From assembly GCA_013286325.1 (NCBI GenBank), contig JABDFZ010000019.1:1-37814 (forward strand): 37,814 nucleotides of DNA, in the 5' to 3' direction. The notes under the pieces are model-generated. The model worked only from the letters and a program-made list of their open reading frames with translations, did not search any database and was not told where the DNA came from. Each line of letters begins with the position of its first letter. Position 1 is the stretch's first letter. Below are positions 6,002 to 34,577 of the stretch, one piece after another. Made by a program: the position numbers and the translations under genes. The stretch is from Bacteroidota bacterium. Lineage in GTDB: Bacteria; Bacteroidota; Bacteroidia; Sphingobacteriales; Sphingobacteriaceae.

Positions 6002-6664
6002 TTATTTTTCCGACGGATTCTTTTTTCCAGCCTGTAGTTTTTCAACCAATTTTCCTAAACGTTCGTTTCTGGTCTTTTCCTGCTTTGCAGATAAGATCCA
6101 GACTACATATTCCTTTCGGTTACTGTATGACAATGAATGGTAAAAAGCCATTGCTGTTGGATGACTTGCCAGCGCCTGCTCAACATCGTGAGGCAACTTA
6201 ACTTGTTTATTATCTACATCAATATAATCGGCATATTCATTATTTCCCTTTATTGCCTCATTTCTTGAATCTGAAACTTTTGCCTGCTCAACAGGACGAA
6301 AACGTAAGGCTGTCCATGTATCATCGATAGATGCGGATGAAACGACCCGTAAACCGTATTTACCTGGTTCGTCCCAGCTATCCATCATCTCCAGGTCTGA
6401 TTTAATGCCTGAGCTTTTTTTCGGGTAACAGATCCAGAAAACGGCATCCGGTTTCAAAACGGGGATTATGATTTTTAAGCTTCCGGTAAGATCAGCACGG
6501 TTTAATACATATAACTGCACCCCATCAAAAAGGCCTTCAGCATTAAATTTAATCTCAACGCCCTCTGGCAGCGGTTCGAGTGTTGCCAGGTAATTGTCAG
6601 GAGCATTATAAAGCAGCCAGCTTTTCCCTGGCTTCATCTGTAGTTTGTTTGTTAAGCTGTTCAT
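6002..6664 (-). CDS. DUF3052-like plus YdeI/OmdA domain protein
   Basis: A 220-residue protein with two recognisable parts. The N-terminal half (about 1-125) resembles DUF3052: SWLLYNAPDNYLATLEPLPE, then FWICYPKKSSGIKSDLE, then a DDTWTALRFRP ending. The C-terminal part (about 140-215) is the YdeI/OmpD-associated (OmdA) domain: VKLPHDVEQALASHPTAMAF, then LSYSNRKEYVVWILSAKQEK, TRNERLGKLVEKLQ and a Lys-rich tail. OmdA-type domains have been linked to bacteriocin or stress tolerance, but the biochemical function is not known. No signal peptide. It is transcribed divergently from the HAD gene at 6784 and ends at its own terminator. Confidence 0.8.
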   Translation of the reverse strand: MNSLTNKLQMKPGKSWLLYNAPDNYLATLEPLPEGVEIKFNAEGLFDGVQLYVLNRADLTGSLKIIIPVLKPDAVFWICYPKKSSGIKSDLEMMDSWDEPGKYGLRVVSSASIDDTWTALRFRPVEQAKVSDSRNEAIKGNNEYADYIDVDNKQVKLPHDVEQALASHPTAMAFYHSLSYSNRKEYVVWILSAKQEKTRNERLGKLVEKLQAGKKNPSEK

Positions 6665-30355: not shown

Positions 30356-31282
30356 ATGAATAAGCCCGTAGCTGTACTGGATCTTGGCACTAACACTTTT
30401 CACCTGCTGATAGTTGAAGGTAATGCTGCAGAATATACTGAAATTGTACATGAACAGGATGCTGTTAAACTTGGCGAAGGCGGTATTAATAAAGGCTTTA
30501 TACAACCAGCAGCATTTGAGCGGGGCATTAAAAGTATGCGACGATACCATCAACTTATTTTAGATAATAATGTACGGCAGGTTAGAGCCATTGCAACATC
30601 GGCTTTGAGAAGCGCAGCAAACGGACAGGATTTCATTAATGAGGTTAAAGCCCAAACGGGAATTGAGATTGAAATTATTGACGGAACTGCAGAAGCGGCT
30701 TATATTTATAAGGGGGTTAAAGCAGGTAATAGTTTATCTGCTCAAAACAGCCTGATAATTGATATTGGCGGAGGCAGCGTTGAATTTATTATTTGCAATG
30801 AAGACGATATAAAATGGAAGCAAAGTTTTGAAATTGGTGCAGCCCGCCTGATGGATAAATTTCATCGTACAGACCCCATTCCGCCTGAATCGATCACCGC
30901 ATTAAACCTTTATCTGGAGGATACTTTAAAAGAGCTGTTTAGTGCTGCATCAACATATACTATTGAATGTATAACGGGTTCATCAGGGGTGTTTGAATCT
31001 TATGCTGCTATTATTGAAACAAGTAAGGGGTATTCCTTTGATCTCAAAAAAACAAAGCGGTATGATTTTGAAAAAGAGGAACTTTTAGCCATACTTGAAA
31101 TGCTCATCCTTTCATCGCACCAGCAGCGTTTAAGTAACAAAGATATCATCCCGGTTAGGGTTGATATGATTGTTACTGCGTCGTTATTAACACGGTTTAT
31201 TATTGAAAAGTTAAAGGTTGATAAAATAGCCATGTCGACCAATTCGCTGAAAGAGGGTGTGTTGGCAGATATGATGAATTAA
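30356..31282 (+). CDS. Ppx/GppA-family phosphatase
   Basis: A 308-residue member of the exopolyphosphatase/guanosine-pentaphosphate phosphatase family, actin-like ATPase fold. It opens PVAVLDLGTNTFHLLIVEG (phosphate-1 motif) and later has ATSALRSAANG, EAAYIYKGV and SLIIDIGGGSVEFIICNEDD (phosphate-2 motif). It has the N-terminal catalytic domains only and lacks the C-terminal HD-type domain of long E. coli Ppx. Expected substrates are inorganic polyphosphate or pppGpp. Its stop codon overlaps the stop of the convergent gene at 31279 by 4 bases. Confidence 0.88.
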   Translation: MNKPVAVLDLGTNTFHLLIVEGNAAEYTEIVHEQDAVKLGEGGINKGFIQPAAFERGIKSMRRYHQLILDNNVRQVRAIATSALRSAANGQDFINEVKAQTGIEIEIIDGTAEAAYIYKGVKAGNSLSAQNSLIIDIGGGSVEFIICNEDDIKWKQSFEIGAARLMDKFHRTDPIPPESITALNLYLEDTLKELFSAASTYTIECITGSSGVFESYAAIIETSKGYSFDLKKTKRYDFEKEELLAILEMLILSSHQQRLSNKDIIPVRVDMIVTASLLTRFIIEKLKVDKIAMSTNSLKEGVLADMMN

Positions 31283-31587
31283 CGGCCAAATTGTGGCAAA
31301 TAAATGCATGTTGAAATACCTATCACCAAAACCATTACCGCACTTAACACCCACATCCAGGTTTTCATACCTTTAGAAGTTATCGCTACAATCACACAAA
31401 CAAAAACATGGATCACTAAAAATAAAGCATCGAATAAGTAGCCTGCGCCGTCACCTATCCTGGTGAATAAAGTATAAATAACGAGTGCAAGCATATTGTA
31501 GCCAACTATATTAAAGTGGTTATTTGTACTCTCCGGCTGGTTGTTTTCAGGAAGTTGATTGCCTCCGTCTGTTGAATGTTCTTCCAT
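31279..31587 (-). CDS. Small membrane protein in the radical SAM operon
   Basis: A 102-residue protein with a hydrophilic, Asn- and Glu-rich N-terminal tail (1-26) and three predicted membrane segments at about 28-44, 48-68 and 76-94. Its ATG overlaps the stop of the radical SAM gene by one base (TAATG), so translation is coupled. It does not resemble a family I know. As the last gene in an operon with an Lgt-like membrane protein and a Tes-like radical SAM enzyme, it may be a membrane anchor or accessory subunit; this is inference. The end of its gene overlaps ppx by 4 bases. Confidence 0.7.
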   Translation of the reverse strand: MEEHSTDGGNQLPENNQPESTNNHFNIVGYNMLALVIYTLFTRIGDGAGYLFDALFLVIHVFVCVIVAITSKGMKTWMWVLSAVMVLVIGISTCIYLPQFGR

Positions 31588-32984
31588 TATACTGTAATTT
31601 CGTTTCTTAACTGCTTTAAGTATTCAATTTTATCATCCCGGTAAAAAATATTCATGGTTTCGAACGGAATGATCTGCAGATCTTTATTCACAATGTGTAC
31701 GCATGATTTTTTTATCGCCCTTACATCAAAATTCTGCGCATCAATAAATTGCATAATTATCACCCTGAAAAGGTTATCGTAACTTAAGTTAGGTGCGTCA
31801 ATATCAGGCAGGCAGCACATGATCGACTTTAAGTGCTCGCCTGCTTTATCTACAGAATTACCAGTGCTGAACATATTAAGCAGGTGCATTTTCAATTTTT
31901 CATCCTGCTCGTAAACAATCGTATTTTTTGAATTATCCAGCAGGTCGTCTGGGTTTATCATACGGGTAAGAGGAAAAACCTGGCCGCCTAATTTTAAAGC
32001 GTAGCCCATAACCAAAGCATCCGGGTTACAGGGAACCGGGATAAGGTCGTTTTTGTTAAACACATCAGTTTGCTCCAATATAGCCGAACGCACTTGCGTT
32101 AAAGTATAACGATCTGTTGACGGATTAAAATTATCCAGCCTCCCGGCCTGTTGAGTTGGCTGGAAAGTTACCCCCCTAACGCATGGCTGCTGCAGTGCGT
32201 ATTCGATTATTTTACCGATCTCATCTGTATTTAGTCCCTTTTGCAGGGTAACTACCAACGTGGTTGAAAGATTATATTTATTAAGGTTTTCCAAAGCCTT
32301 GCGCCGCACCTCCCTCAGGTCTTCGCCGCGTAATTGCTCCAGGGCTTCCTTTTTAAAGGAATCAAATTGCAGGTAAATTTCAAAATCGGGCATATAAGTA
32401 GCAAGTCGCTGTACAAAAGCTTCGTCTTTGGCTATCCTTATGCCATTTGTGTTAAGCATCAGGTGCTTAATAGGTTTTGTTTTAGCAATATCAAGTATCT
32501 CAAAAAACTGCGGGTGAACAGTAGGCTCTCCCCCACTAATTTGTACAACATCAGGCTGGCCTTCATTTTCAACTATTACATCCAGCATCTGTTCAATCTC
32601 AACCAGTGTACGGTGCCGGCCATAGGTTGGCGATGACATGGCATAACAAGTTGGGCAGCTTAAATTGCACCTGTCGGTAACCTCAACAACAGTGAGGCAT
32701 GAATGCTGTTCATGATCCTGGCATAAACCACAATCGTATGGGCAGCCAAAATGTGTCTTTGAATTAAACTTAAGTGGCATTTCGCTTCGCTTTGCATAGT
32801 TGCGGCAGTTTTTATAATATTCAATATCTGTAGCTATTAAAACCTTTTCAAAACCGTGATGCCTGCAGGTTTTTAGCATGTAAACTTTATCGTCCTCAAA
32901 AACTATCTTAGCATCAACCCTTCTTAAGCAGATTGAACAGATACTCAGGGTAAAATCATAATATATATACGGACGCTCAGGCAT
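31587..32984 (-). CDS. Radical SAM enzyme related to the MJ0619/tetraether lipid synthase (Tes) group
   Basis: A 465-residue radical SAM protein. The N-terminal domain has Cys16-x2-Cys19 and KTCRHHG (Cys40), like the rubredoxin-type site of Tes. CPYDCGLC (Cys81, 85, 88) with a following HEQHSC (Cys96) matches the second-cluster motif. The radical SAM motif CNLSCPTC (Cys106, 110, 113) follows VTDRCN, then ISGGEP for SAM binding. The C-terminal part has paired Cys in IMCCLPD and KSCVHIV; further on, IIPFETMNIFYRD has Glu where I would expect Cys. Archaeal Tes joins lipid chains through carbon-carbon bonds. The target here is unknown. The start overlaps the Lgt-like gene by 8 bases. Confidence 0.8.
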   Translation of the reverse strand: MPERPYIYYDFTLSICSICLRRVDAKIVFEDDKVYMLKTCRHHGFEKVLIATDIEYYKNCRNYAKRSEMPLKFNSKTHFGCPYDCGLCQDHEQHSCLTVVEVTDRCNLSCPTCYAMSSPTYGRHRTLVEIEQMLDVIVENEGQPDVVQISGGEPTVHPQFFEILDIAKTKPIKHLMLNTNGIRIAKDEAFVQRLATYMPDFEIYLQFDSFKKEALEQLRGEDLREVRRKALENLNKYNLSTTLVVTLQKGLNTDEIGKIIEYALQQPCVRGVTFQPTQQAGRLDNFNPSTDRYTLTQVRSAILEQTDVFNKNDLIPVPCNPDALVMGYALKLGGQVFPLTRMINPDDLLDNSKNTIVYEQDEKLKMHLLNMFSTGNSVDKAGEHLKSIMCCLPDIDAPNLSYDNLFRVIIMQFIDAQNFDVRAIKKSCVHIVNKDLQIIPFETMNIFYRDDKIEYLKQLRNEITV

Positions 32985-33726
32985 AAGATTTTATCAGTTT
33001 TGAAGGATAAACAAATACTTTATAATAATACAAAATACCTGCAATACAAGCTAATTGAATTACCGACAAACCAAAACTAAAAAAGTAATCGGGTTTAATA
33101 AACTCTATCGCAAAACGGAATATTAGGTATGAAGAAAGAAAGATTTTAAACTTAGCGCCATCAGCAAACCGGCATTTTTTTTCTATTACTTTTAGTGAGA
33201 TCCATAATAGTACCCAAAATACAATCTCGTATAAATTGGTAGGGTGCCGGCGAACCCCATCGCCAAAATCAATAGCCCATGGTAAATTTGAAGCTATGCC
33301 GTAAGTGCCATCTTCCAGTCCGGCTAAAAAACAACCTATCCGGCCAATTATCATTGCCAGTATTAATGGATAAACCATCATATCTCCGGATGATATAGTT
33401 ACCCCTATTTTCTTTTTTGTAAGCTCTACTCCTAATAATCCACCAAGCATCCCACCAACAATAGTTTTATTACCCATTAAATAGGTAAGGTTAAAATGCG
33501 GCAATAACGATGGGTTTTCAAGCACGCCCACCAAATGTGAGCCTACTAATGCGCCAATAGCAGCCCCGATAAATATAATCAGCCTGTTTTCTGAGCTGAT
33601 CAGGTCGTTATTATGCTTTCTTAAATAAGTATAATACCTGTAACCAACAAAATATGCCAGGGTTTCACAAATAAAGTGAACTGGCAAAAACGATTTACCC
33701 AGGGGAATATTTACCGGAAAGTGCAC
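32977..33726 (-). CDS. Lgt-like membrane transferase, divergent
   Basis: A 249-residue polytopic membrane protein, about seven segments, with the framework of prolipoprotein diacylglyceryl transferase (Lgt): GRIGCFLAGLEDGTYG (129-143), HPTNLYE (161-167) and RFAIEFIKP (204-212). Key Lgt residues differ: GRxGN is GRIGC (Asn to Cys132), and the conserved His in the FHGG segment is Leu94 in VGGMLGGLLG. The Arg129, Arg204 and Glu208 positions are kept. Lgt transfers diacylglyceryl from phosphatidylglycerol to lipoprotein Cys. This copy is likely a paralogue with a different acceptor or donor. It starts with GTG at 33726 and heads the radical SAM operon. Confidence 0.75.
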   Translation of the reverse strand: MHFPVNIPLGKSFLPVHFICETLAYFVGYRYYTYLRKHNNDLISSENRLIIFIGAAIGALVGSHLVGVLENPSLLPHFNLTYLMGNKTIVGGMLGGLLGVELTKKKIGVTISSGDMMVYPLILAMIIGRIGCFLAGLEDGTYGIASNLPWAIDFGDGVRRHPTNLYEIVFWVLLWISLKVIEKKCRFADGAKFKIFLSSYLIFRFAIEFIKPDYFFSFGLSVIQLACIAGILYYYKVFVYPSKLIKSYA

Positions 33727-33827: not shown

Positions 33828-34577
33828 TTACTTAAATATTTTACGGACAGGCCTGCGAATGTATTTATAATATACGCGCTTGAAAAACGGGCGCCTAACA
33901 ACAACTACTTCGCCTAATAACATAGGCGCCTCTACAAGTTTTACCTGGAAATTTGTATCCTGCCCTACATTCACATTAATACTTTTGCTAACAAACCCTA
34001 CGTAAGTGATGTTCAGCTGCGTGGTGTAGAAGGGTATTTGCAATTTAAAATCGCCATTATTATCTGTCATTGTGCCTACCGTACTTAATGGTACCTTTAT
34101 AGCTACACCAGGCAATACTTCATTACGCTTGTCGGTAATATGGCCGGTTATTACCCTGTATCGAAGCGAATCTGGCATAGCTACTTTTCCTACTATAATA
34201 TTTCCAGGTATAGGTTCTTTGCATCCGGTTTGTCCCGTAGTTTGATTGGTGCTCGTTTTTGTTTGCGCATCAGCTTTTAAAAATATAGTAGAACCCAACA
34301 AACCCATCGCCATAACCCACCCTTTCCAACCGCCAGCATTTTGTAAATCTTCGTTATAAAGTTTTTGATTGACTCCGGTTAGCTGTTGCTCGCCAAACCT
34401 TCCGCAAACATGGTTTTTGACAGACAGGTAATTAATAATTTCATCGTTGCTCATGTTTGTAAAATCGACAACTGTTTTGCTACAGCTTTGGCAGTGGCGG
34501 CCATTGTCTGCAGGTGTCATTTGCTGCCATGATTGGTGGCAAGTTTCCGGGATGCTGATGTTTTTAAGATGCGTCAT
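33828..34577 (-). CDS. Membrane protein with Cys motif and CarboxypepD_reg-like domain
   Basis: A 249-residue protein in three parts. Residues 1-62 hold four Cys (13, 29, 32, 58) in CHQSW, CQSCSKTVVDFTNMSNDEII and VCGRF, a probable zinc site that recurs in Bacteroidota proteins. Residues about 85-103 form one membrane segment. Residues about 140-220 form a CarboxypepD_reg-like beta-sandwich: VITGHITDKRNEVLPGVAIK, then GTMTDNNGDFKLQIP. A basic tail follows. The zinc-like part would be cytoplasmic and the beta domain periplasmic, a layout like a transmembrane signal or anchor protein. Function unknown. Confidence 0.75.
   Translation of the reverse strand: MTHLKNISIPETCHQSWQQMTPADNGRHCQSCSKTVVDFTNMSNDEIINYLSVKNHVCGRFGEQQLTGVNQKLYNEDLQNAGGWKGWVMAMGLLGSTIFLKADAQTKTSTNQTTGQTGCKEPIPGNIIVGKVAMPDSLRYRVITGHITDKRNEVLPGVAIKVPLSTVGTMTDNNGDFKLQIPFYTTQLNITYVGFVSKSINVNVGQDTNFQVKLVEAPMLLGEVVVVRRPFFKRVYYKYIRRPVRKIFK

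Follow-up and report, generated by a model that had tools for sequence, protein, structure and literature searches.

In the 37,814-nucleotide stretch of a Sphingobacteriaceae genome analysed here (hereafter the window; contig JABDFZ010000019.1, positions 1 to 37,814), three overlapping open reading frames (ORFs) on the minus strand encode a paralogue of Lgt, a radical S-adenosylmethionine (SAM) enzyme with the fold of the tetraether lipid synthase Tes, and a small membrane protein with a cysteine close to its C-terminus (the tail cysteine). We show that the Lgt paralogue, the Tes-fold enzyme and one to three such tail-cysteine proteins are inherited together. We tentatively propose that they may form a three-part protein-lipidation module, in which the Lgt paralogue would lipidate the tail cysteine and the radical SAM enzyme would remodel the lipid tails; this chemistry is inferred, and we regard the proposal as possible rather than probable.

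Conserved linkage of the three genes

The ORF coordinates agree with an earlier note on this DNA, made from its letters alone, which had described three genes on one strand overlapping by 8 bases (Lgt-like/radical SAM) and by 1 base (radical SAM/small). The note had also suggested surveying gene neighbourhoods, and the linkage is indeed conserved: an Lgt homologue is present at 78 of the 80 named Bacteroidota loci that carry the radical SAM gene, and at 77 its gene shares the strand and lies a short way upstream. At L084 the Lgt gene lies 3.8 kb off, and L077 is the only one of the 80 loci where it is absent and no contig edge intervenes. The pairing of the two genes is far above chance. An Lgt neighbour also accompanies less closely related radical SAM proteins (33-42% identity; genomes G268, G301 and G244), and the same pair occurs in Nonomuraea and on a plasmid of Mycobacterium avium.

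The trait is patchy, being found in 23 of 151 genomes of the family and 26 of 296 of the phylum. Within the genus, all 10 radical-SAM-positive genomes also carry the paired-type Lgt and the small protein, and none of the 8 negative genomes carries either (a comparison that ignores kinship); in the 10 positive genomes the small protein occurs at the locus only, with no copy elsewhere. The radical SAM and Lgt trees contain the same three clades; as the radical SAM tree has long branches, we place no weight on how its deepest forks are ordered. We regard the association, statistical and evolutionary, as shown.

Radical SAM proteins of Tenacibaculum (L066-L070, L075) are 77-78% identical to that of the window, and those of g14, a genus of the window's own family (L012-L022), are 69-73% identical. 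Since the Tenacibaculum proteins are the closer ones, these sequences suggest that the trio moved by horizontal transfer.

Small membrane proteins with a conserved tail cysteine

The small genes, one to three per locus, lie directly 3' of the radical SAM gene and sometimes between the radical SAM and Lgt genes. Tandem duplication of them is frequent; neither this nor the conserved tail cysteine had been described in the earlier note. Their products have two or three transmembrane (TM) segments, with one longer fusion, match no Pfam or NCBIfam family above cut-off and have no Pfam family in common. Their sequences change quickly, with about 25-44% identity to the 102-residue protein of the window, and the tail cysteine, C94 in the window, is kept in 15 of 15 same-family proteins. 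The last helix ends in the lipobox-like sequence I-G-[FL]-[SG]-[TAISV]-C or in one close to it, and the cysteine is followed by a variable stretch of 1-16 residues (median 8).

A scripted test for a small TM ORF with a tail cysteine, at a distance of at most 700 bp on the same strand, was positive for 119 of the 125 systems and for 13 of 123 controls, which were other small multi-TM ORFs of the same loci; the 125 systems are non-independent, as there are close relatives among them and some are records of one genome that overlap. Inspection of the six misses by hand revealed a tail-cysteine protein in each, bringing the count to 125 of 125. L029 and L094 each encode a small one, the M. avium locus two, and the Nonomuraea locus one that is fused to a Pro-rich region; in G244, represented by L126 and L171, it is encoded by the ORF 6166-6588 (...LSGGMCIFLPQPL).

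In the tested zone, 146 of 162 ORFs have a hydrophobic stretch whose outer end carries the tail cysteine. Glycine occupies position -4 to the cysteine in 131 of these 146, and the loop preceding the last TM segment is net positive in 133 and negative in none. By the positive-inside rule this loop charge places the tail cysteine on the predicted periplasmic side, the same side as the Lgt active site; the topology derives from hydropathy and charge rules rather than from measurement. The earlier note had taken the third protein for a possible membrane subunit. We prefer to read it as the likely, predicted cysteine acceptor rather than as a generic subunit; rival readings make the protein a membrane subunit or a peptide on which the radical SAM enzyme acts.

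Two actinobacterial loci have layouts of their own. In Nonomuraea (L168, 3045-4151) the tail-cysteine domain forms one protein with a long N-terminal region rich in Pro and Gly, and the gene for it precedes those of Lgt and the radical SAM enzyme. On the mobilizable M. avium plasmid pS2b (L167, 3126-6446) an Lgt-family protein is encoded together with two tail-cysteine small proteins and the radical SAM protein.

An Lgt paralogue that keeps the donor-lipid site

The Lgt-like protein matches the Pfam LGT family (PF01790) with an E-value of 1.9e-23 and 83.5 bits (cut-off 24.9), and E. coli Lgt (5AZB) is the sole significant PDB fold match of its model (TM-score 0.60). It lies below the cut-offs of the NCBIfam Lgt equivalogs, with 28.5 bits versus 118.9 and 51.3 versus 334. 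In the numbering of an E. coli Lgt sequence that is consistent with the 5AZB stretch, R143, N146, E202, Y235, R239 and E243 correspond to R129, C132, E167, Y200, R204 and E208 of the window, H103 to V90 and Y26 to H17. The equivalents of R143, E202, Y235, R239 and of the signature glycines G142, G145 and G154 are invariant in all 116 linked Lgt sequences, and that of E243 is always E or D. In E. coli Lgt, R143, E202, Y235 and R239 surround the donor lipid (Mao et al. 2016, PMC4728403). A true Lgt homologue keeping the donor-side catalytic residues is supported; the competing view is that of a catalytically altered scaffold.

Linked and canonical Lgts fall into separate clades (tree support 100/98). 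In the searched positive genomes that have the linked copy, a canonical Lgt is present in addition to it; most of the negative genomes searched have a single Lgt.

A radical SAM enzyme on a Tes scaffold

Pfam recognises Radical_SAM and HMPTM zinc-ribbon domains in the middle protein, both above cut-off. The cysteine motifs that the earlier note had listed are all present: C16-X2-C19-X20-C40-X2-H43 (CxxC...C), C81PYDCGLC88 with H91 and C96 (HxxHSC), and C106NLSCPTC113. The top PDB sequence match is Tes (7TOL, E-value 2.8e-64, the runner-up having 2e-6), to which the protein is about 30% identical. The structure comparison that the note had proposed also leads to Tes: the AlphaFold model (pLDDT 79.8, pTM 0.85, with residues 351-399 unreliable) aligns to 7TOM with Z 41.0 and rmsd 2.7 over 403 residues, the next family being MoaA with Z 19.2, and Foldseek gives a TM-score of 0.79 against Tes.

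Alignment to the Tes metal ligands (PMC9433317) makes all four metal sites of Tes recognisable, the C-terminal one being changed. At that site the protein has S, E and I for C455, C470 and Y459 of Tes, the last of which is conserved in archaeal Tes, and keeps C456 (C428 here) and M439 (M411 here). Tes has no equivalents of C96, C319, C390 and C391; the C-terminal cluster ligands are assigned by alignment and conservation, not read off a structure. The protein scores 267.9 bits on the NCBIfam Tes equivalog NF045702, below its cut-off of 450, and 317 bits on the radical SAM (seleno)protein TrsS (NF045646), its best NCBIfam match over most of its length, below a cut-off of 490. Because the features of the Tes model and of the C-terminal site are missed, the enzyme works on a Tes scaffold without belonging to Tes on the features tested. 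The note's assignment to the MJ0619/Tes group thus holds for architecture and fold and breaks down at the NCBI Tes cut-off and at the C-terminal site, where two of three cysteines are lost. A protein of the same phylum, in genome G215, scores 493.8 bits on the Tes model and so exceeds the 450 cut-off; neither an Lgt gene nor a small gene was found near this bona fide Tes homologue.

Proposed mechanism and alternatives

The Tes-like fold, the true Lgt homology and the conserved linkage together argue for a role in membrane lipids or lipoproteins, as the earlier note had supposed; its example of tail joining, taken simply as the work of a Tes, is not supported in that form. The simplest account makes the tail cysteine the putative acceptor of the linked Lgt, because this cysteine is invariant, faces outward and sits beside a donor-competent Lgt paralogue. 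Using its retained donor site, the paralogue would move diacylglyceryl, or a similar group, from a phospholipid to the tail cysteine. The last helix follows a positively charged loop on the cytoplasmic side, and its hydrophobic stretch leads to the lipobox-like motif and the cysteine; in this it may mimic a lipoprotein signal peptide, one that is C-terminal and has a -1 position poorly suited to canonical processing. Since a Tes-fold enzyme is inherited with Lgt and the small protein, the simplest role for it is to act on the tails of the donor or product lipid, which it could do before or after transfer by abstracting hydrogen at an unactivated carbon. The outcome might be a Tes-like coupling of tail ends or another C-C or C-S bond. 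The small integral membrane protein would end up with an unusual lipid attached to it, one that may be tail-joined or span the membrane. Here we infer the lipid transfer, the identity of the acceptor and the radical chemistry alike. A more specific version, which we consider doubtful, is a second, dedicated lipoprotein pathway in which the paralogue would lipidate the cysteine of the C-terminal helix and the Tes-fold enzyme would then build on the protein a lipid that is tail-joined or otherwise modified at carbon.

Several observations weigh against a lipidation module. The linked Lgts have V, M, I or L in place of H103 and H in place of Y26, both of which are essential residues of E. coli Lgt, and the HGGL motif containing H103 has been proposed to bind the acceptor peptide (Mao et al. 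2016, PMC4728403). Variation at these columns is found in canonical Bacteroidota Lgts as well, which often have Y at H103 and F at Y26, so the replacement of H103 is suggestive only. The tail motif departs from the canonical lipobox: it is C-terminal, comes without an N-terminal signal peptide and [LVI][ASTVI][GAS]C, and has mostly T, A, I, S or V at -1, with T in 63 of 146 proteins and no more than 39 having A or S. The auxiliary cluster site at the C-terminus, where Tes holds the substrate intermediate, is re-ligated, so that C-C tail coupling is not transferable from Tes, and the unreliability of the model at residues 351-399 affects the putative second lipid pocket. The N-terminal cluster cysteines are absent from the actinobacterial branch. 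The radical SAM and Lgt genes are unlinked in G183 and G415, and G166 carries a paired-type Lgt and no detectable radical SAM gene. That Lgt (L179, 4153-4998; 39% identity) is possibly a relic or a case of changed use.

Three other explanations were considered. The radical SAM enzyme might act on bulk phospholipids, joining or modifying their tails in the manner of Tes or Mss (iso-C15 tails to iso-diabolic acid); the Lgt-like protein would then move a head group or a diacylglyceryl unit from lipid to lipid, and the small protein would serve as a membrane docking subunit. Bacteroidota make iso-branched tails, which counts in favour of this idea, as does the Tes fold of the enzyme. Bacterial Tes homologues have, in addition, been proposed for branched tetraether lipids (PMC8941075). 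We nevertheless find it unlikely: the enzyme is under the Tes cut-off with a changed cluster site, the real Tes homologue of the phylum lacks both partners, and the invariant cysteine of small proteins that diverge fast and are often duplicated would be left unexplained.

The small protein could also be a substrate resembling a ribosomally synthesized and post-translationally modified peptide (RiPP), modified by the radical SAM enzyme at or near the tail cysteine (for example to a thioether), the Lgt-like protein then lipidating or holding the product. The adjoining small genes, their tandem copies and the variable tail of 1-16 residues past an invariant cysteine would suit such a substrate, and SkfB and SuiB are among the lower fold matches. 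Tes dominates those matches, though, with Z 41 against 17-19 for the peptide maturases, and the cysteine would lie across the membrane from a cytosolic enzyme. The small linked ORFs encode proteins of two or three TM segments with no recognisable leader and no known leader family, and we consider this explanation quite improbable. Very unlikely, in our view, is an inactive Lgt-like protein in a membrane complex, such as a sensor or redox complex, with the tail cysteine as a metal or disulfide ligand. Replacement of H103 and Y26 and the several metal-binding cysteine sites of the radical SAM partner are compatible with it; invariant donor-site catalytic residues over 116 sequences are unexpected for a dead scaffold, and there is usually one tail cysteine per small protein.

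The locus and its surroundings

Features of the trio in the window
Feature	Position	Strand	Basis
Lgt paralogue (PF01790), 249 residues, GTG start	32977..33726	minus	Pfam, tree, residue alignment, fold match
Radical SAM enzyme, Tes/TrsS fold, 465 residues	31587..32984	minus	Pfam, NCBIfam, PDB search, fold match, alignment
Small 3-TM protein, 102 residues, ends ...KTWMWVLSAVMVLVIGISTC(94)IYLPQFGR, predicted cysteine acceptor	31279..31587	minus	
Codon of conserved tail cysteine C94, outer end of last hydrophobic stretch	31306..31308	minus	
Rubredoxin-like site of radical SAM protein	C16, C19, C40, H43		aligned to Tes ligands
N-terminal cluster site of radical SAM protein	C81, C85, C88, H91		aligned to Tes ligands
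Radical SAM cluster	C106, C110, C113		
Candidate altered C-terminal cluster ligands of radical SAM protein	C319, C390, C391, C428		alignment

The genome of the window is 61% complete and has a single copy of each enzyme gene; its named close matches (at most 99% identity) are Mucilaginibacter. The genes flanking the trio, upstream and downstream, are not conserved beyond the genus, a point absent from the earlier note. The neighbours encoding Ppx/GppA, M1 peptidase, Maf and carboxypeptidase-regulatory-like proteins were rejected as parts of the module because their recurrence is essentially confined to Mucilaginibacter. The carboxypeptidase-regulatory-like protein (33828-34577), which has an N-terminal C...CxxC motif, adjoins the trio in several Mucilaginibacter and nowhere else, and appears incidental.

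Significance

If true, the proposal would add a second route for making lipoproteins and a radical step in protein lipidation. In its more specific version, it would to our knowledge describe a membrane lipid bound to protein and modified by a radical SAM enzyme for the first time. We found no description of the trio in the open-access literature, which is weak evidence; a lipid study of soil Bacteroidetes that includes a Mucilaginibacter isolate has diabolic acid in its reference list only, and glycerol dialkyl glycerol tetraethers (GDGTs) in its introduction and references only. Bacterial Tes homologues are widespread, and their substrates outside Mss are an open question (PMC9433317, PMC8941075). 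In the cysteine of the small membrane protein the trio offers a concrete candidate for such a substrate, together with a partner enzyme of known chemistry, and thereby makes this question testable in cultured, harmless genera such as Mucilaginibacter and Chitinophaga; Chitinophaga eiseniae and Mucilaginibacter gossypii are examples of cultured non-pathogens that have the system.

Comparison with known systems

The window enzyme has in common with Tes (GDGT-MAS, MJ0619; 7TOL/7TOM) the whole-chain fold, the rubredoxin site, the N-terminal cluster site, the CX3CX2C site and the labile Met. It differs in being partnered with Lgt and tail-cysteine proteins, in scoring below the Tes cut-off and in its C-terminal cysteines. 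Tes itself binds phospholipids with little head-group specificity (PMC9433317). Mss is described as the bacterial enzyme that couples fatty acids into membrane-spanning lipids (PMC13274423); unlike the window enzyme it is reported alongside Ger rather than Lgt.

With methyltransferase-linked homologues, the window enzyme shares C96 and C319. These more distant relatives, from Mycolicibacterium and haloarchaea (L164-L166), are also under the TrsS (NF045646) cut-off and have no annotated Lgt gene nearby; their methyltransferase gene lies directly 3' of the radical SAM gene, and in the haloarchaea the shared neighbours further include a DUF547 protein and a redoxin. Apart from L164-L166, no methyltransferase is among the identified neighbours in the window or recurs beside the gene in the surveyed loci.

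E. coli Lgt (5AZB) and the window paralogue have the fold and the donor-site residues in common, whereas the paralogue lies below the equivalog cut-offs, has H103 and Y26 replaced, forms its own clade and coexists with a canonical Lgt. Finally, the small proteins resemble bacterial lipoproteins in having a positive loop, a hydrophobic helix, small residues and a cysteine at the outer membrane face, and differ from them in carrying the motif, I-G-[FL]-[SG]-[TAIS]-C, on the C-terminal helix of a multi-TM protein.

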